A stretch of DNA of 21,622 nucleotides from NCBI GenBank assembly GCA_030671165.1, contig DAOVAG010000003.1, positions 1 through 21,622 on the forward strand. Direction: 5' to 3'. Source of the stretch: Candidatus Bathyarchaeota archaeon (GTDB lineage: Archaea > Thermoproteota > Bathyarchaeia > RBG-16-48-13 > GCA-020355125). The position numbers and the translations under genes are program-made. Below are positions 9,014 through 19,068 of this stretch, one piece after another (the stretch's first letter is position 1; each line of letters opens with the position of its first letter). Under the pieces are notes generated by a model. The model was not told where the DNA came from, made no database searches, and saw only the letters and a program-made list of their open reading frames with translations.

Positions 9014-10984
9014 TCATGCTTTACCAAGCATCTTTTTTAACATGGGGGGGAGCCTCCTCTTTCCGATCGATTTCATAAGCTTTTTCATTGCATTATATTG
9101 TTTTATTAAGTCTTTAACATCCCTCTCGGTTGTTCCAGAACCCTTAGAGATACGTTTAACTCTCGACGATTTGATGATCTTTGGATTCAGTTTCTCCTCT
9201 TTAGTCATCGATTGAATAATGTAACGCCACTTTTTTAACTTGTATTCTGCATCTTCAAGAGTATCCTCGGGAAGTTTGTAACCCATTCCTGGAATCATTT
9301 TCAAGATATGTCTTAGTGGACCCATACTTTTCATGGCTTCCATTTGTGAATACATGTCCTCTAATGTGAACCGCCCTTTTAGAATGCCCTTCGTTTTTTT
9401 CTCAGGTAATCTGATTTCTGCTTCTTTTACTTTTTGAATCAAGCCATTTATATCGCCCATCCCTAAAAGTCTACCAACGAATCTTGATGGGACGAAGAGG
9501 TCTATATCATCCAGTTTTTCTCCTGTTCCAACAAATTTAATAGGAACGCCAATTGAAGCTACAGCTGATAGGGCGCCTCCACCTCTTGCTGTACCATCAA
9601 GTTTTGTAATACAAATAGAACCAATTTTTGTTGCTTCATTAAAAGCCGTAGCTTGGAGGGTTGCTTGTTGTCCAATGGTTGCATCAATAATTAGAATGAT
9701 TTCGTTTGGATTAATAGCTTGGGTAATTTTTTTCATTTCTTGGATTAAACTCTTCTCATCCTTGTGTCTCCCTGCGGTATCAATAATTATAACCTCATAT
9801 CCATCCTTGGTAAAATCTTCAACGCCTTGAGCAACAATTGTTAAGACGTCTTGTCCTCCTTCTTTGCCATATACTGGGACATTGATATCTTTAGCTAACT
9901 GTTTTAATTGAGCAAAAGCGCCAAGCCTATAAGTATCTGCGCAAACAAGAGCAGTTTTGAAGCCACGTTTTTTGAAGTATCTGGCTATCTTTGCTGAACT
10001 TGTGGTATTCTGTATGATTATATTATTGGCAATAAAATTATGGTGTTCATTAATTGTGAGATCATAAACGTAGTCGATAGAATGGTTTTTGTTCTTCTGA
10101 ATGTCTTTTACTTTTACCCAGGTGATATCAGTCTTATGTTGAGTGATGTCGTATGATAATGGTTTTGAAGTTATTCTAATCGTTGTTCTTTCATCTTTGA
10201 GTTTTTCTTCTTCAGTAAAGATAGATTCATCACAAGTTTTTTCATATTTCCAAGGGAAATCTTTCCCGATAGTCGATGGAACCATTATATATTGTCCTTT
10301 TTTTAAGTTATCTGCTCTTACTCGATTAATAACACCATTATTAAATGTAAAAAAGGGGTGTTCAGGTGTTGTCGTAATTTTAGGATTAGTCGTGGAGTCT
10401 AACAATACTTCATAAAGCTCTTCAGTTGCTTTTAATTTCCAAATCCAGTCGACGAGTCTTTCTTCCATTTTCAGTGTTTCTAGATTAACAGAGTACGCCT
10501 TAAGATTTCTTGGCTGTATAGCTATACCATCTTGAAGAACAATAACATTTTCACAACAACCGATCTGTTCTTCAAATAACTCAGCTATTGTTATTACCGG
10601 TCGATTTACCATTGAAACTTTGGAGTGCCCGACCACACATTTCCCGCTCCCCTGTATTCCAACTAGCATGAAAATATTTGCCCGTCCCGGTTCAACTCCG
10701 ATTTTAGCAGGTGTATTCCCTACGAATTTTGTTAATTCTTCGTAGATCACTTTTATTACGTGGTCTCTTCTACTTATCCCAGGAGGTAACTTCTCTTTCA
10801 AGGTTCTCTCTTTAATTCGATTTGTTAGATCTAAGACAAGGTGGACATTTACATCAGCTTGGAGAAGGGCTCGTTGGAAATCCGTAACCAGTTGTTTAAC
10901 GGCATTCTCATCAATGATCGGAGTCTTGATGATTTTTCTAAGAGCTTCTGTTAGGGAAGCACCAAGTTTCTCTAAGGCTGACAT
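9014..10984 (-). CDS. srp54: Signal recognition particle SRP54 precursor containing an intein
   Basis: SRP54 is the GTPase that binds signal sequences and 7S RNA and delivers ribosomes to the membrane receptor FtsY. The open frame is 656 residues, but removing the 211-residue intein leaves 445, the family's normal size. The N domain spans about 1-90. The G domain holds the P-loop GIQGSGK (109-115) continued after the intein by TTSSAKIA, then DTYRLGAFAQL, DTAGRHKDEKSL and TKLDGTARGGGALSA. The methionine-rich M domain includes FTLEDMYSQMEAMKSMGPL and the RNA-binding VKRISKGSGTTERDV. It heads the cluster; a box candidate CCATATATTC (11011-11020) lies about 30 bases upstream of the ATG. Confidence 0.96.
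   Translation of the reverse strand: MSALEKLGASLTEALRKIIKTPIIDENAVKQLVTDFQRALLQADVNVHLVLDLTNRIKERTLKEKLPPGISRRDHVIKVIYEELTKFVGNTPAKIGVEPGRANIFMLVGIQGSGKCVVGHSKVSMVNRPVITIAELFEEQIGCCENVIVLQDGIAIQPRNLKAYSVNLETLKMEERLVDWIWKLKATEELYEVLLDSTTNPKITTTPEHPFFTFNNGVINRVRADNLKKGQYIMVPSTIGKDFPWKYEKTCDESIFTEEEKLKDERTTIRITSKPLSYDITQHKTDITWVKVKDIQKNKNHSIDYVYDLTINEHHNFIANNIIIQNTTSSAKIARYFKKRGFKTALVCADTYRLGAFAQLKQLAKDINVPVYGKEGGQDVLTIVAQGVEDFTKDGYEVIIIDTAGRHKDEKSLIQEMKKITQAINPNEIILIIDATIGQQATLQATAFNEATKIGSICITKLDGTARGGGALSAVASIGVPIKFVGTGEKLDDIDLFVPSRFVGRLLGMGDINGLIQKVKEAEIRLPEKKTKGILKGRFTLEDMYSQMEAMKSMGPLRHILKMIPGMGYKLPEDTLEDAEYKLKKWRYIIQSMTKEEKLNPKIIKSSRVKRISKGSGTTERDVKDLIKQYNAMKKLMKSIGKRRLPPMLKKMLGKA
10007..10639 (-). 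other. Mini-intein in the SRP54 P-loop (211 residues)
   Basis: The intein occupies precursor residues 116-326, splitting GSGK from TT in the Walker A motif. Residue 1 is Cys (CVVGHSKVSM, block A). Block B is ITTTPEHPFF with the T-x-x-H pair at intein residues 91 and 94. Block F is YVYDLTINEHHNFIANN, block G is IIIQN, and the +1 extein residue is the P-loop Thr. Only about 95 residues separate blocks B and F and no LAGLIDADG motif is seen, so the homing endonuclease is absent. The penultimate residue is Gln rather than the usual His. Splicing is needed to restore the nucleotide site. Confidence 0.93.
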
Positions 10985-13331: not shown

Positions 13332-13340
13332 CTTTAAATA
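13332..13340 (+). promoter_or_regulatory. Box A of the aromatic-biosynthesis operon
   Basis: CTTTAAATA is a good archaeal TATA-like box. The expected start of transcription is about 25 bases downstream of its centre, near 13361. That puts the GGAGG ribosome site (13369-13373) and the leader peptide start (13381) immediately at the front of the transcript. Confidence 0.55.
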
Positions 13341-13349
13341 CTAACAAAA

Positions 13350-13364
13350 AACATTAAAAATGTT
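13350..13364. promoter_or_regulatory. Palindrome AACATT-AAA-AATGTT at the predicted start of transcription
   Basis: AACATT and AATGTT are perfect inverted repeats around AAA, placed between the TATA-like box and the ribosome site and overlapping the expected transcription start. This is a classic place for a repressor to block initiation. The AT-rich composition makes chance occurrence possible. Confidence 0.35.
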
Positions 13365-13380
13365 AATCGGAGGAATAATT

Positions 13381-13443
13381 GTGCTATTTTGGAGAGATTG
13401 GGTTTTCAGGGGGCATCGTTTTTACATCTTCAAAAAAGCATGA
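13381..13443 (+). CDS. Aromatic-rich 20-residue leader peptide
   Basis: GTG at 13381 is preceded by GGAGG (13369-13373) with a 7-base spacer, the best ribosome site in the region. It opens a frame MLFWRDWVFRGHRFYIFKKA ending at TGA. Seven of 20 residues are aromatic (Phe 3, 9, 14, 17; Trp 4, 7; Tyr 15), and the first structural gene of the aromatic amino-acid operon starts 96 bases downstream. Composition, position and strong translation signals match bacterial amino-acid attenuator leaders such as those of trp and pheA. I infer that ribosome progress over the Trp/Phe/Tyr codons tunes expression of the operon. I know of no well-characterised archaeal counterpart. A constitutive micropeptide or chance frame cannot be excluded. 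Confidence 0.6.
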   Translation: MLFWRDWVFRGHRFYIFKKA

Positions 13444-13507
13444 TATTAAGCATCTAAACTTTTTTGCAGTGTTACAATCTACTGCTAGTTTTCTTGTTTG
13501 TTGCTGC
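13431..13507 (+). promoter_or_regulatory. Candidate attenuator: competing stems and U-tracts
   Basis: CAAAAAAG (13431-13438, covering the last leader codons) is fully complementary to CTTTTTTG (13459-13466), an 8-bp stem that would sequester a six-U tract. The next element GCAGT (13466-13470) pairs with ACTGC (13481-13485). It is followed by a U-rich run with TTTT at 13489-13492 and further T clusters to 13515, resembling a terminator. GCAG can instead pair with CTGC at 13504-13507. Archaeal RNA polymerase terminates on U-tracts, so ribosome position over the leader could decide which tract is exposed. Folding was judged by eye. Confidence 0.4.
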
Positions 13508-13539
13508 TTTTATTTCGAGATGATTTTTCAGGGGATTCA

Positions 13540-14760
13540 ATGAAGGACACTATAGTGGTTAAATGGGGTGGATCATGTTTATCTAACCCAGAAAGCATTC
13601 TCCTAGCTGCAAAAAAGATATTGGGAGAAGTAAAGCGTAAGAGAAAAGTTATAGTGGTAGTCTCTGCTCTATTAGGAGTCACAGATCAGTTATTATCCTA
13701 TACAACTAAATCAATGTCGGATAGTGTATTAAAAGAAGATTTAGATGAGATTCTATCCATGGGTGAAAGGACATCCGCTCGCATAATGGCTAGTTCTCTA
13801 AAATCGCTCGGGATGAAAGCCGTAGAAATAGATCCTACCTCAAACCTTTGGCCAATATTTACGGATTCAAAATTTGGTAATGCTAACATAAAAATGAAAG
13901 AAACCAAAGATGCTGTAAACAAACGAATTATTCCACTTTTACTTGAAGATAAAATACCCGTAATTGGAGGTTTTGTTGGACTTTCACCGGAAGGAAAAAT
14001 AACAACTCTCGGAAGAGGGGGAAGTGATTTAACGGCTGTTGTTTTAGGTAACTGTATTGATGCAGAGGAAGTGATATTTGTTAAGGATGTTGAAGGCGTA
14101 TTTTCTGGTGATCCTAAAAAAATTTCTGATACTCAAAAAATTGAGTCGCTTGATATAGATGCAGCTTACAGCTTAGTTGCAGCAGGTGCTAAAATTATTC
14201 AACCCAAAGCTTTGATTTATAAGAAGGACAATATGATTCTGCGAGTTGTAGGTTTTGGTGCATCGAGTTTATCTGGAGGTACGATCATCACAGGAGAACT
14301 AGAGACTGGAGTGAAAGCCAAACTTTTCTCCTCGCCTCTTTCGATGATAACATTAATCACGCATAATAGTTCATTGGAAAATGTTTCAAGAATTCTATCA
14401 GCAGTTTCCACTGTAAACGGAGAAATGTTAGGGTTAACCGTCTCTCCAACATCTATTCTTCTATATATTTATAACCCGTCTAATCTTGTTCAGGAACTTC
14501 ACGAAATGATAAGGGATGAAGAAATCGCTACAGCGATACATTGTATTGATTCATTAGCTATGATAATAATATCTGGATATGGAATAGAAAATATACCCGG
14601 CATCCTAGATGTTGTTGTCTCTCCCTTATCAAAGAAAAACGTAAATCTTTATGGAGTGTTTACAATTAGTTCTTCAATAAGAATATTCGTTCCATGGGAT
14701 GAAAGAGAAAAAACTCTTTCATCAGTTAACAATGTTTTAAATAAATTCAAAAATATGTGA
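13540..14760 (+). CDS. lysC: Aspartate kinase
   Basis: A 406-residue aspartokinase that phosphorylates aspartate, the first step towards aspartate semialdehyde. The N-terminal KWGGS motif (residues 8-12), LSMGERTSARIMAS, TLGRGGSDLTAVVLG and VEGVFSGDPKKI define the kinase domain. The last ~130 residues form ACT-like regulatory repeats (MITLITHNSSLENVSRILS; IISGYGIENIPGILDVV), so feedback control by an amino acid is likely. ATG at 13540 is chosen over an upstream TTG at 13498 because AGGGGAT lies just upstream and the extra residues (MLLLLFRDDF) do not belong to the fold. Placement at the head of a shikimate operon fits the archaeal route, in which aspartate semialdehyde is a carbon source for dehydroquinate. 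Confidence 0.92.
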   Translation: MKDTIVVKWGGSCLSNPESILLAAKKILGEVKRKRKVIVVVSALLGVTDQLLSYTTKSMSDSVLKEDLDEILSMGERTSARIMASSLKSLGMKAVEIDPTSNLWPIFTDSKFGNANIKMKETKDAVNKRIIPLLLEDKIPVIGGFVGLSPEGKITTLGRGGSDLTAVVLGNCIDAEEVIFVKDVEGVFSGDPKKISDTQKIESLDIDAAYSLVAAGAKIIQPKALIYKKDNMILRVVGFGASSLSGGTIITGELETGVKAKLFSSPLSMITLITHNSSLENVSRILSAVSTVNGEMLGLTVSPTSILLYIYNPSNLVQELHEMIRDEEIATAIHCIDSLAMIIISGYGIENIPGILDVVVSPLSKKNVNLYGVFTISSSIRIFVPWDEREKTLSSVNNVLNKFKNM

Positions 14761-14768
14761 AGGAAAAA

Positions 14769-15560
14769 ATGAACATGGGAAAAAAAAGGAGATTAGAGAG
14801 AATTTTCAGAGAGGACGGTAAATCAGTAATAGTTCCAATGGACCACGGAGTCACACTCGGCCCAGTTAGAGGGTTAATAAATATGCAGGAGATTATTGAT
14901 AAATTAGTGCTAGGGGGAACCGATGGTATTGTTCTTCATAAAGGCATTGCACAAAAAATAGAAACTCGTGGAATGGGTCTTATAACTCACTTGTCAGCCA
15001 GTACAGAACTGAGTCCAGATCCCCTGTGGAAAGTTCAAGTCTGTAGTGTAGCGCATGCAGTAAAGTTAGGTGCAGATGGTATTTCAATTCATGTAAATGT
15101 AGGAGCTCCAAGAGAGGGGGAAATGTTAACGGATATGGCTTTAATTGCTGATGAATGCGAGGAATTTGGAATGCCCCTACTTGCTATGATGTATCCGCGG
15201 GGACCCAAGATTACCGATAGCAATGATGTAGAAATTATAAAGCATGTTGCAAGATTGGGAGCAGAATTGGGGGCAGATATTATCAAAACCAATTATACGG
15301 GTAGTCTAGAAACTTTTAAAGAGGTTGTGCAAAGCTGTCCTGTTCCCGTTGTAATCGCAGGTGGACCTAAACAGAAGAGTGATGAAGGTGTTTTAAAGAT
15401 GATTTATGACTCGATTCAAGCGGGAGGAGCAGGAGTCTCAATTGGTAGAAATACATTCCAACATGAAAACCCAATTTTAATGACTAAAGCTCTCTCAGCA
15501 TTAGTTCATAAAGGAGCAACTGTAGAAGAAGGTTTACTAATTCTCAGGGGAGTCAGATGA
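14769..15560 (+). CDS. aroA': 2-amino-3,7-dideoxy-D-threo-hept-6-ulosonate synthase (ADH synthase)
   Basis: An aldolase-type enzyme of the DhnA/class I FBP-aldolase-like family. It joins a ketofructose phosphate-derived unit with aspartate semialdehyde to form ADH, replacing DAHP synthase in archaea. Visible motifs are VPMDHGVTLGP, IVLHKGIAQ, MMYPRGPKI with its tyrosine, DIIKTNYTGS with the Schiff-base lysine, and VVIAGGPKQKSDEG plus the phosphate-binding GGAGVSIGRNTFQHENP. The assignment as ADH synthase rather than fructose-bisphosphate aldolase rests on the DHQ synthase II gene overlapping directly downstream. ATG at 14769 has AAGGA upstream; GTG at 14757, overlapping the previous stop, is an alternative and would suit translational coupling. 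Confidence 0.9.
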   Translation: MNMGKKRRLERIFREDGKSVIVPMDHGVTLGPVRGLINMQEIIDKLVLGGTDGIVLHKGIAQKIETRGMGLITHLSASTELSPDPLWKVQVCSVAHAVKLGADGISIHVNVGAPREGEMLTDMALIADECEEFGMPLLAMMYPRGPKITDSNDVEIIKHVARLGAELGADIIKTNYTGSLETFKEVVQSCPVPVVIAGGPKQKSDEGVLKMIYDSIQAGGAGVSIGRNTFQHENPILMTKALSALVHKGATVEEGLLILRGVR

Positions 15561-16651
15561 GAGAGTTTTGGATTGAAATTGAGAGTTCAATGACAAATGA
15601 GCTTAAAAAAGAGTTACTAAGAGCCTCTGAAGACCTGTGTGATGTAATAGTTTTAAGTGAAGCAGACATTCATCTTAGGAAATCGTGTACAAATCTTATA
15701 GCCTCCCCTGTTGATGGCGACATCCAAATAATAGGAGAGGAAATGATTAATCAGATCGAGATATTAAAGAAACAACAAAGAACACTATGCTTAAAGTTAT
15801 TAGTTAAAGATAGGGATGACGAAGCTAAAGCTGTGAAAGCGGCAGAGAGCGGGGTTGATTACATTATTGTTATTTGTCCAAACTGGAAAATCATTCCTCT
15901 TGAAAATTTGATAGCTAAAACAAATAAAAAGACAAAGCTTCTCGCAGAGGTAGTGGATGCAAAAGAAGCAAAAATTGCTGTTGAAATCCTTGAATTGGGA
16001 GTTGATGGTGTTGTCCTTAAAACAGATAATCCAAAGGAAATAGAAGCAACAGCAAGAGTTCTGAAAAGTATTGTGAGTCTACCTGAAATTGAAGATGAAA
16101 ATCAAAAAATTGAGTTAACAACGGTTAAGATTCTGAATTCTAAGCAATTGAGTATGGGATTACGAGTATGTATTGATACGTGTGACATTATGACACAGGG
16201 AGAGGGGATGCTTATTGGTTGTCAATCCTCAGGACTCTTTTTAATTCAAGCTGAGGTTGAGAAGAATCCGCATGTAGAACCTCGCCCCTTTAGAGTAAAC
16301 GCAGGTCCCGTCTCTTTGTACATTCTCGATTCAGATAATAAGACGCGTTACTTATCGGAGTTAAAAGCGGGAGATGAAGTATTGGCAGTTAATAGGAAGG
16401 GAGATTTTCGAAAAGTTGTAATAGGTCGATTAAAGATTGAAAGAAGACCTCTGACACTCATTGAAGCTGAAATGGATGGATATAGAATGAAAACAATCGT
16501 ACAAAATGCAGAGACAGTTCGATTTGTAACCAAAGACGGTTCTATATCGGTTAATGAACTAAATAAAAATGATGAAGTGTTAGCTTTTCGTCAGCTTGGA
16601 GGGAGACATTTTGGAGTTCTTGTTCAAGAGGAGTCTGTTACAGAAAGATGA
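15557..16651 (+). CDS. aroB': 3-dehydroquinate synthase II (archaeal AroB')
   Basis: A 364-residue enzyme that converts ADH by NAD-dependent oxidative deamination and cyclisation to 3-dehydroquinate; it is unrelated to bacterial AroB. Hallmarks are the N-terminal EFWIEI with a divergent barrel-like half (GVDYIIVICPNWKIIPLENLIA at about 95-116) and the conserved C-terminal half, MGLRVCIDTCDIMTQGEGMLIGCQSSGLFLIQAE followed by PRPFRVNAGPVSLYIL and LSELKAGDEVLAVN. Its ATG overlaps the preceding TGA (ATGA), and its own stop overlaps the next start in the same way, which argues for coupled translation. Confidence 0.94.
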   Translation: MREFWIEIESSMTNELKKELLRASEDLCDVIVLSEADIHLRKSCTNLIASPVDGDIQIIGEEMINQIEILKKQQRTLCLKLLVKDRDDEAKAVKAAESGVDYIIVICPNWKIIPLENLIAKTNKKTKLLAEVVDAKEAKIAVEILELGVDGVVLKTDNPKEIEATARVLKSIVSLPEIEDENQKIELTTVKILNSKQLSMGLRVCIDTCDIMTQGEGMLIGCQSSGLFLIQAEVEKNPHVEPRPFRVNAGPVSLYILDSDNKTRYLSELKAGDEVLAVNRKGDFRKVVIGRLKIERRPLTLIEAEMDGYRMKTIVQNAETVRFVTKDGSISVNELNKNDEVLAFRQLGGRHFGVLVQEESVTER

Positions 16652-17331
16652 TAATTAAGGTCTGTGCAGTTGTAACGGCCACGAATATACCCGATGTAAA
16701 ATGGATGGTTGAGAAAGCAGAGCAGTGTAATGCTGATATTATAGAGATAAGAATGGATTACCTTTCAGAGAAATTTAAAGTGGAAGAAATAAGAAAGTTA
16801 ACATCACTTCCATTAATCGCTACTAATCGTCTCCACGAAGAGGGAGGATTTTTTCGAGGTTTAAATAAGGAGCGGGTTAAAATATTATTAGATGCTGCAG
16901 CAGCCGGCTTCGACTACATTGACATTGAACTAATGGCGAACAATTCGAGGAAAATCGTTAAGAATATCAAAGCGTTGGGTGCAGAAAGCATCGTTTCTCA
17001 CCACATATTTACATTGACACCGAGACTGTCAGAAATCACAAAAATCTATGAAAGAGAGTTAAGTATAAAAGGTGATATTTGTAAAATAATCACAACAGCA
17101 AAAAAAATTGAGGATAATCTAACATGCCTTAACTTTGTAGTTGAAGCATCAAAATCAAATAATGTCATCTGTTTCTGTATGGGAAAGCAGGGAATAATTT
17201 CCAGATTACTTTCCCCCGTATTAGGAGGTTACATTACATATGCTTCTATTGGAAGAGGAAAAGAGTCAGCTGAGGGTCAATTAACAGTTGCAGAAACAAA
17301 AAAGTTTTACGAGTTGATCAACAAAAATTGA
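16648..17331 (+). CDS. aroD: 3-dehydroquinate dehydratase, type I
   Basis: A 227-residue class I dehydroquinase that dehydrates 3-dehydroquinate to 3-dehydroshikimate through a Schiff base. The substrate-binding EIRMDYL (33-39), RLHEEGGFFRG, YIDIEL, the general-base histidine in SHHIF (His119) and the Schiff-base lysine in GDICKIITTA (Lys146) are all in place, as is the C-terminal TYASIGRGKESAEGQLTV. The length is typical. The ATG overlaps the aroB' stop. Confidence 0.94.
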   Translation: MIIKVCAVVTATNIPDVKWMVEKAEQCNADIIEIRMDYLSEKFKVEEIRKLTSLPLIATNRLHEEGGFFRGLNKERVKILLDAAAAGFDYIDIELMANNSRKIVKNIKALGAESIVSHHIFTLTPRLSEITKIYERELSIKGDICKIITTAKKIEDNLTCLNFVVEASKSNNVICFCMGKQGIISRLLSPVLGGYITYASIGRGKESAEGQLTVAETKKFYELINKN

Positions 17332-18188
17332 TCTCGAAGATTAATAGTGAAACAAGACTCTATGGGGTTATTGGAGACCGTGTGGAACATTCATTTAGCC
17401 CTTTAATGCATAATGCTGCTTTCCAATTCCACGGTATAAACAGCGTCTATCTCACCCTTCAAGTAAAATCTCATGGTTTAGAGGACGCTATTAAAGGGAT
17501 TAAGAGTATGGGTATACTTGGAGTAAATGTAACAATACCTCACAAGATTTCAATAATGAAATATTTAGATGAGATTGATTCTAATGCAAAAAATATTGGA
17601 GCAGTGAATACGGTAATTAACAAAAATGGAAGATTGATAGGATACAACACAGACGGAGCCGGAGCTTTAGAAGCTTTAAAAATGGGAAATGGAAACCCGG
17701 CAGGAAAAAAAGTTATACTTTTGGGAGCTGGTGGAGCAGCTAGAGCCATATCCTTTTCGATCGCGCCTGTTGTTAGTAGATTGGTTGTACTTAATAGAAC
17801 AAGATCTAAAGCAACTTATCTAGTTAAAGCTATAAAAAAACGACTTAATATAGAGATAGTAGGAGAAGAATTAACAACTAGTAATCTTTCAAGGGAACTT
17901 ACAGACACTGAAGTGTTAATCAATACAACATCCGTTGGAATGTTCCCAAAGATTGAAGAAACACTTGTAGATAGAAACATTATTAAATCGCATATGGTTG
18001 TCTTCGATATAATCTATAACCCTCCAGAAACACGGCTTTTAAGAGAAGCAACAGCATCAGGTGCTAAGGTTATAAATGGGATAAATATGCTTGTAAACCA
18101 AGGTGCTCTATCCTTCAAACTTTGGGTCGGATTGAAACCACCTATCGATATAATGCTTAAAGCAATCAAGAGAGAATTAAGGGAATGA
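17328..18188 (+). CDS. aroE: Shikimate dehydrogenase
   Basis: A 286-residue NADP-dependent enzyme that reduces 3-dehydroshikimate to shikimate. The shikimate-binding serines in HSFSPLMHN (Ser22, Ser24), the catalytic lysine in VTIPHK (Lys73), the aspartate in NTDGAGALEAL (Asp109), the nucleotide-binding loop GAGGAARAI (133-141) with the NRT basic patch for NADP (VLNRTRSKA), and the NTTSVGM and GINMLVNQGALSF end are all present. It starts with TTG overlapping the aroD stop (TTGA), so it depends on coupled translation. Confidence 0.95.
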   Translation: MISKINSETRLYGVIGDRVEHSFSPLMHNAAFQFHGINSVYLTLQVKSHGLEDAIKGIKSMGILGVNVTIPHKISIMKYLDEIDSNAKNIGAVNTVINKNGRLIGYNTDGAGALEALKMGNGNPAGKKVILLGAGGAARAISFSIAPVVSRLVVLNRTRSKATYLVKAIKKRLNIEIVGEELTTSNLSRELTDTEVLINTTSVGMFPKIEETLVDRNIIKSHMVVFDIIYNPPETRLLREATASGAKVINGINMLVNQGALSFKLWVGLKPPIDIMLKAIKRELRE

Positions 18189-18192
18189 TAAG

Positions 18193-19068
18193 ATGGTTGG
18201 GTTTGGAACAGCTATAGCATATGGTGCAGTGACTATAATAAACGCTATAGCCACAGGTAAAGGAGCAGCCTTAGGAGTGAATCTTTGGACAAGAGCAAAC
18301 GTTCGATTGACAAGGGAGAAAGGAGTTGTTAATGGAAAAATTCTCTCGGAACCAAATGAGAATACAACACTAATTAAGGAATCTATATTAACTGTTCTAA
18401 AATACTTTCACGTTGAAAACAAATTTGGAGCTGAAGTAGAAACAGAGTCCAATATTCCAATAGCTAAAGGATTAAAAAGTAGCAGTGTAGCTTCAAACGC
18501 CTTAGTTTTAGCCACTATAGGAGCTCTAAGAAAAAATGTAGACGATTTCACCGTATTGAATCTGAGTGTAGATGCTTCAATTAAAGCTAAAACAACAATT
18601 ACCGGTGCTTTTGATGACGCAAGTGCATCCTTCTTTGGTGATATCACTTTAACTGATAACCTAAAAAGGACAATATTAAAGAGATTTACAATAAAAGAAG
18701 ACTTAACAGTTCTTCTTCACATTCCATCTGAGAAATCGTATACGTTTAAGTCTAATGTAGATAGGATGCGACTGATTGCTCCACAGATTAAAGTCGCTTT
18801 TCATGAGGCATTATCAGGTAATTATTGGACCGCATTGACAATGAATGGAATTTTATATGCAACTGCTTTAGGCTACGAACAGAAGCTAGCAATAGATGCG
18901 TTAGAAGCTGGCGCGTTAGCTTCTGGATTAAGCGGTAAAGGCCCTGCAACAGTTGCCATCGTATATGAAAATCAAATTGATAAGATTCTTGATGCTTGGC
19001 ACACCTATGAGGGTGAGATAATTCAAGGAAAAGTGAATCATGAAAAGGCTAGAATAACGGAGAAATAA
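18193..19068 (+). CDS. aroK: Shikimate kinase, archaeal GHMP type
   Basis: A 291-residue GHMP-superfamily kinase that phosphorylates shikimate; it is unrelated to the P-loop AroK of bacteria. The N-terminal GAVTIINAIATGKGAALG is followed by the ATP-binding loop PIAKGLKSSSVASNALVLAT (about 92-111), the GAFDDASASFFGDITLTDN motif (about 138-156) with its acidic residues, and the C-terminal glycine loop ALASGLSGKGPATVAIV. It begins 4 bases after aroE and closes the operon. EPSP synthase and chorismate synthase are not in the window, so the last two steps are encoded elsewhere. Confidence 0.93.
   Translation: MVGFGTAIAYGAVTIINAIATGKGAALGVNLWTRANVRLTREKGVVNGKILSEPNENTTLIKESILTVLKYFHVENKFGAEVETESNIPIAKGLKSSSVASNALVLATIGALRKNVDDFTVLNLSVDASIKAKTTITGAFDDASASFFGDITLTDNLKRTILKRFTIKEDLTVLLHIPSEKSYTFKSNVDRMRLIAPQIKVAFHEALSGNYWTALTMNGILYATALGYEQKLAIDALEAGALASGLSGKGPATVAIVYENQIDKILDAWHTYEGEIIQGKVNHEKARITEK

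Follow-up and report, generated by a model that had tools for sequence, protein, structure and literature searches.

The stretch of DNA analysed here (the window; 21,622 nucleotides of a Candidatus Bathyarchaeota archaeon) carries on its forward strand an operon for aromatic amino acid precursors, whose genes, from aspartate kinase (AK) through an archaeal shikimate kinase, are as an earlier preliminary description of this DNA had given them. AK and 2-amino-3,7-dideoxy-D-threo-hept-6-ulosonate (ADH) synthase constitute an alternative, DAHP-independent route into the shikimate pathway. The AK of the window matches that of L003, a Candidatus Bathyarchaeota MAG and the nearest named record, at 88%, and that of genome G002 at 89%. 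The operon and the features preceding it are as follows:

13333..13340, + strand: TATA-like box TTTAAATA, kept in the relative L003, with similar boxes in other relatives
13369..13373, + strand: GGAGG, ribosome-binding site of the leader, kept in L003
13381..13443, + strand: leader frame A VLFWRDWVFRGHRFYIFKKA, from GTG 13381 to TGA 13441-13443
13391..13407, + strand: cassette 1, composed of the SD-like GGAGA (13391-13395), a spacer, GTT (13402-13404, putative P site) and the Phe codon TTC (13405-13407, putative A site)
13408..13425, + strand: cassette 2, composed of the SD-like AGGGGG (13408-13413), 6 nt, TTT (13420-13422, putative P site) and the Tyr codon TAC (13423-13425, putative A site)
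13403..13543, + strand: frame B (+1), which would be entered by the proposed slippage, open to TGA 13541-13543
13460..13465, + strand: T6 run downstream of the frame A TGA, perhaps an archaeal terminator
13540..14760, + strand: aspartate kinase (AK), first gene of the operon
14757..15560, + strand: ADH synthase, above the TIGR01949 cut-off
15557..16651, + strand: 3-dehydroquinate synthase II
16648..17331, + strand: type I 3-dehydroquinase
17328..18188, + strand: shikimate dehydrogenase
18193..19068, + strand: archaeal shikimate kinase, above the TIGR01920 cut-off

Transcription would start about 25 nt past the TATA-like box, that is, near 13360. The box, the GGAGG site, the GTG start, the frame of 20 residues (2 W, 4 F and 1 Y in VLFWRDWVFRGHRFYIFKKA) and the gap of 96 bases between the frame A stop and the AK ATG at 13540 had all been reported before, and each was confirmed in position. 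A second possible start of frame A, the in-frame ATG at 13360, would give a 27-residue version. The significance previously attached to the aromatic residues did not hold: when the 350 bases upstream were dinucleotide-shuffled 2000 times, a short frame of equal or higher aromatic content arose in 14% of cases (P 0.14), so that composition alone is no evidence, and in the families to which the window belongs only 3 of 30 loci reached p<=0.05 in the shuffle test of aromatic codon enrichment. Nor are the Trp codons of frame A conserved as a pair; the closest relative has just one of the two, and it sits within a Shine-Dalgarno-like string, TGGAGG. Frame A as a conserved peptide was rejected, since the substitution pattern of the window and L005 favours neither frame A nor frame B in their overlap. 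The same pair displays no codon periodicity in the stretch covered by frame B only (10, 5 and 9 differences by codon position).

Frame B ends in a stop that overlaps the AK start codon (ATGA). If TTG 13379 is taken as its start, it encodes 54 aa up to TGA 13543 and overlaps frame A in the +1 register; the preliminary description makes no reference to it. The AK gene of the window is also preceded by an SD of its own, AGGGGATTC. Read-through of UGA into frame B was discarded as an explanation, the upstream stop being TAA in L004 and L005 and TAG in L018. An Rfam scan of the window at the gathering threshold, which covered riboswitches and T-boxes, returned only a tRNA gene (247-348, - strand, RF00005). 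Elsewhere in the window, the SRP54 gene (9014-10984, - strand) contains an in-frame intein (Intein_splicing, E 9.6e-26).

AK matches were sought in 101 genomes and then in 256 genomes of the class (139 of the 256 at E<=1e-55), and 121 upstream regions were inspected, comprising 41 loci from the searches and 80 fetched stretches. Thirteen regions were excluded as belonging to a different AK by their flanks (L026, L104, L170-L177 and L180-L182), and L079, which is too short, was left out of the shuffle test. The window's families (f1, f5, f8, f18 and f21; the first three form group A) comprise 30 loci. Their leaders carry one or two cassettes, in which AGGAGG or AGGGGG is followed by 6 nt, or GGTGAT or GGTGGT by 3 nt; after this SD-like stretch and fixed spacer comes NUU, and then UUC or UAC/UAU. 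All 30 loci combine a cassette with a +1 frame that is open from the last cassette onward (23 were scripted and 7 further f21 loci were read by eye). This frame closes at the AK start codon in f1, f5, f8 and two of the six f18 loci, and is the AK frame itself in the other four f18 loci and in 14 loci of f21. In unfused loci, the stop of frame B falls between -5 and +23 nt relative to the AK start that the analyst assigned.

Tested against shuffles, the openness of the +1 frame gives a summed log10 P of -14.4 for 17 representatives from 15 genera and of about -13.7 with one locus per genus, values that are not strict probabilities because the loci are related and the AK starts were assigned by the analyst. 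In none of the 17 representatives is frame A open as far as AK, and the third frame, C, is open only in L016; outside this set, C is also open in L018. In four of the seven scripted f21 loci there is no start codon in the AK frame between leader and AK. Synonymous-only codon differences behind the leader, summed over pairs of ten f21 loci, number 149 in the +1 frame vs 71 and 93 in the others, a bias not seen between the window and L005. The motif NTTTTCNGGNGGN7TTTAY stands at the AK leader in nine of ten group-A genomes, being absent there in G045. Thus described, the cassettes, their register, the open frames and, in many loci, the missing start codons are read directly from the DNA. Pairing with the anti-SD, taken from the 16S tail of two relatives and not of the window's genome itself, is better than in shuffles at 34 of 34 AK sites; this result, like the NUU and the aromatic identity of the codon after it, is partly a product of the search, which demanded NTT before T[TA]Y or TGG and, for AK sites, GG[AGT]G upstream.

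Control genes behave differently. The cassette occurs in none of 30 prephenate dehydratase (PDT) loci, all of which have an in-frame start codon, and in 2 of 30 loci of PF00579 (TyrRS/TrpRS, 16 genomes), both being the TrpRS genes of G309 and G438 treated below. The group-A motif has 19 matches away from AK in the 256 class genomes, compared with 4 for the reversed pattern; in none of the 19 was a leader-like arrangement seen (frames were measured in all, and 11 were read in detail). These matches (L135-L149 and L157-L160) are recorded here as an excess over the reversed-pattern control.

Judged by its sequence and that of its relatives, the region upstream of AK in the window is quite probably a regulatory leader that senses aminoacyl-tRNA by programmed +1 ribosomal frameshifting. 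For its mode of action we infer pairing with rRNA in the cell, slippage, an amino-acid signal and re-initiation. Ribosomes would start in frame A at GTG 13381, and the SD-like stretches upstream of GTT-TTC (13402) and TTT-TAC (13420) would pair with 16S rRNA. With ample charged Phe- and Tyr-tRNA, frame A would be read to its stop at 13443, about 100 nt before the AK gene. When these tRNAs are scarce, the A site would stay empty, the P-site tRNA would slip from NUU to UUU and translation would continue in frame B, which in the window would bring ribosomes to the AK start codon and allow re-initiation there; where frame B is the AK frame (f21 and most f18 loci), the shift would lead straight into AK. 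It is proposed that a shortage of Phe or Tyr would in this way activate the initial step of aromatic biosynthesis. With UGG in the A site, an identical device would control trpE in most Bathyarchaeia and TrpRS in other lineages. Several observations count against a frameshift: the AGGAGG of f1, f5 and f8 lies 6 nt from NUU, unlike the 3 nt of prfB (and of the f18-type GGTGAT); re-pairing from GUU to UUU is mismatched at the first position; in the window and L005, frame B has a start at a good SD distance and lacks codon periodicity; the window's AK has its own SD, and the genus of the window lacks the trpE cassette; an in-frame start is present in 44 of the 93 TrpE loci treated below and in the TrpRS of L362; and the group-A motif has its excess of matches away from AK. 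For the window's AK, the lack of a usable start of its own is indicated only indirectly, by the overlap of frame B with the AK start.

A sensor role of the A-site codon predicts UGG at that position in the Trp pathway. TrpE was sought in 24 genomes (16 with a match to PF00425) and in the 256 genomes (117 with a match), and 100 TrpE loci, from 99 of these 117, were scripted. In 93 of the 100, NTT-TGG follows a start codon (ATG in 88, GTG in 5) at a distance of exactly four codons, and TrpE is in the +1 frame. The three codons in between are mostly RGG-NAT-NNN, and the P codon is CTT in 41, GTT in 31, ATT in 18 and TTT in 3. These leaders out-pair shuffles with the anti-SD in 87 of 93 cases, no SD filter having been applied. 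The TrpE frame contains no ATG, GTG or TTG up to codon +30 past the shift in 49 of the 93 loci; the remaining 44 have one, which precedes the shift site in 17 (for 5 loci, at codon -1 only) and is found only after it in 27. In four f13 genomes (L275, L284, L286 and L287), TAG stands directly 5' of the TTT, so that the TrpE frame can be entered only at GTT_TGG. The cassette is absent from 7 of the 100 scripted loci (L207, L208, L256, L242, L294, L285 and L288) and from trpE in two further genomes, G033 and G014. Two of these loci, L207 and L208 (genomes G000 and G001), come from the window's own genus and begin trpE with an ordinary ATG; the cassette was lost or replaced there in a lineage-specific manner.

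Outside the class, TrpE matches were found in 15 of 56 other genomes of the phylum, and 10 N-termini were inspected. Seven (G534, G269, G323, G263, G449, G422 and G317) contain NTT-TGG such that TTT is a codon of the TrpE frame, 4 to 6 codons after a possible start as judged by eye, and no cassette was seen at the N-terminus in G437, G279 and G337. A search for the Trp pattern across 398 genomes of the phylum gave many matches besides trpE; the 20 that were fetched, among the matches listed, comprise 4 TrpRS genes, one trpE-like piece and 15 chance-like cases. The trpE-like piece, L369 (G159:C8 near 180000), represents an additional trpE-like start in that genome, which is interrupted and bears this cassette too. 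The Trp cassette precedes TrpRS in at least four genomes outside the class, namely G309, G389 and G369 (f46, close to Candidatus Methanomethylicia by nearest names) and G438 (f62). In these genes it leads in +1 into an open stretch of 301 codons within the fetched DNA, and L357 and L362, both of which were scanned, exceed the TIGR00233 trpS cut-off. The first in-frame start in the TrpRS frame comes at codon 44 in L357, 77 in L358, 43 in L359 and 6 (GTG) in L362. Of eight relatives in the database, the closest begin with VFG or MFG, and some start further in or have other N-termini.

At AK itself, other families of Bathyarchaeia present a different picture. Outside the window's families, leaders are strongly aromatic: against shuffles, 67 of the 77 loci reach p<=0.05 and 49 reach p<=0.01. 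In 70 loci (f10, f20, f6 and more), a run of Phe or Tyr codons is followed by a stop and a hairpin; this count omits the f13 AK loci as well as L178 and L179, although their leaders are aromatic. Folding behind the leader has a mean z of -2.5 against shuffles (44 of 70 below -2). In 57 of the 70, a GCCCAG-like arm begins no more than 14 nt from the stop; by eye the pairing of the stem is kept while its inner letters vary. The mere count of stems was dismissed as evidence: a stem of at least 6 is present in 70 of 70 loci and also in 78% of shuffles, so only the stem score (15.8, vs 9.7 in shuffles) and the sequence are informative. In L012 and L014 (f6), Tyr codons occur in runs (NPYYYYYYYCFF for L012) and a long hairpin with a U-run follows at the stop; among the loci examined these two leaders are the clearest candidates for archaeal attenuators. 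By their sequences, the AK leaders of f10, f20, f6 and other families outside the window's look like classical attenuators. Hence the idea put forward in the preliminary description, an aromatic leader acting by ribosome-mediated attenuation ahead of this operon, fits other families of the class but not those of the window, where aromatic content is at chance and folding shows no excess. As most Bathyarchaeia examined have a leader with aromatic codons at this gene, translation-dependent control by aromatic amino acids in an archaeon appears likely.

These attenuator-like leaders at the same gene are an argument for reading the window in the same way, with a ribosome stalled at aromatic codons altering RNA folding or coupling, so that the polymerase passes a terminator at the U-run at 13460. 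The T6 run behind the window leader, and the single terminator-like stem at 13466 that ends in a T-rich tail (0.1 expected), agree with it. Against classical transcription attenuation stand the folding behind the leader in 25 loci of the window's families, which does not exceed expectation (mean z -0.48, 4 of 25 below -2), and the runs of at least 5 T, present in five of ten group-A loci and missing in L006, L007, L009, L011 and L016. Together with a chance-level aromatic count in the window, and given that stalling offers no account of a +1 frame always leading to AK, this makes attenuation improbable here. It is also unlikely that frame B merely precedes AK as a coupled frame with a start of its own (TTG 13379 for the window), that frame A is incidental and that no shift takes place. 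In the window and L005, frame B does have such a start, TTG or ATG at a good SD distance, and might be translated from it directly; GTG codons overlap the leader start in f18 and f21, and the 17 TrpE loci whose in-frame start precedes the shift site point the same way. However, frame B has no ATG, GTG or TTG at all in L007 and L016 and has one only in its last 21 nt in L006 and L091. Direct initiation is likewise at odds with the 49 TrpE loci devoid of a start up to codon +30, with the TAG immediately before TTT in the four f13 genomes, and with the distance of four codons from leader start to NTT-TGG, which is fixed in 93 of 93.

For trpE, initiation at a non-standard codon (AUC, AUA or AUU) in the TrpE frame might be considered, as the leader ATG is often followed in this frame by GGN-ATN-NNN-TTT-GG. 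Such initiation is highly improbable: the four f13 genomes have a stop between the AUN position and TTT, L222 has GTA at that position, and initiation of this kind would not explain why ATG and UGG are conserved in the other frame. With programmed frameshifting as the preferred reading, it is fairly likely that thermoproteotal archaea share a general switch in which, when a charged tRNA is scarce, a +1 slip at a hungry sense codon near the beginning of the message yields the very enzyme that restores the amino acid or the charged tRNA (AK for Phe and Tyr, TrpE and TrpRS for Trp), with classical attenuators replacing it at AK in other families of the class, and that this would be the first natural amino-acid sensor built on hungry codons.

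The closest known parallel is bacterial prfB, as described in a 2016 review (PMC5009743). Both have a short zero-frame leader within the gene, an internal SD, a slippery NUU_U, a slow A-site codon and the main protein in the +1 frame, and in both the product would relieve the slowness, a likeness closest for TrpRS. An SD-like stretch at a short fixed distance is found here (spacing of 3 or 6 nt; the 87 of 93 TrpE leaders), as is a possible slip from NUU followed by U onto UUU, the latter partly by construction of the search; a +1 product without a usable start is found for TrpE (the 49 of 93) and for TrpRS in L357-L359, L362 having its start at codon 6. Unlike in prfB, the A site holds UGG, UUC, UAC or UAU and not a UGA read by a release factor, the P codon may be GUU or AUU as well as CUU, and the host is an archaeon; in f1, f5 and f8, the SD lies 6 nt away and re-initiation instead of fusion would follow the shift. 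The archaeal cassette is not a member of the prfB group, and by analogy it would work like one.

Leader-peptide attenuation of bacterial trp and pheA operons shares the short translated leader with codons for the end product and the sensing of aminoacyl-tRNA, and the AK leaders of other Bathyarchaeia come closest to it; the window's families differ in having neither an above-chance aromatic run nor excess folding, and their output would be a change of frame. In the telithromycin-induced frameshifting at the ermC uORF, according to the same review (PMC5009743), shifted ribosomes also enter a spacer and a downstream gene is expressed, but that system is triggered by a drug, works by RNA unfolding and has no tie to amino-acid supply. 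A programmed frameshift in an archaeal chromosome is described for Saccharolobus fucA1 in a 2021 review (PMC8211752); it differs in its -1 direction, in having no known regulatory role and in its unrelated sequence. That review counts one reported case of programmed -1 frameshifting in Archaea and adds that +1 frameshifting was suggested for a haloarchaeal virus and that frameshifting was presumed for magnesium chelatase (PMC8211752). The 2016 review states that no examples were known of starvation-specific trans-frame proteins arising from hungry-codon frameshifting (PMC5009743), and a paper on archaeal trp regulation names the systems of M. thermoautotrophicus and T. kodakaraensis as identified by 2007 (PMC1854888). 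Searches of the open-licence literature on archaeal leader-peptide attenuation and on frameshifting in archaea, at trpE or at synthetase genes gave, among the matches listed, no title or beginning of an abstract that describes such a device.

If the proposed reading is true, it would supply dozens of natural examples of hungry-codon frameshifting and show that archaea sense amino acids at the ribosome. Many TrpE and some TrpRS proteins would then probably be mis-started in databases.
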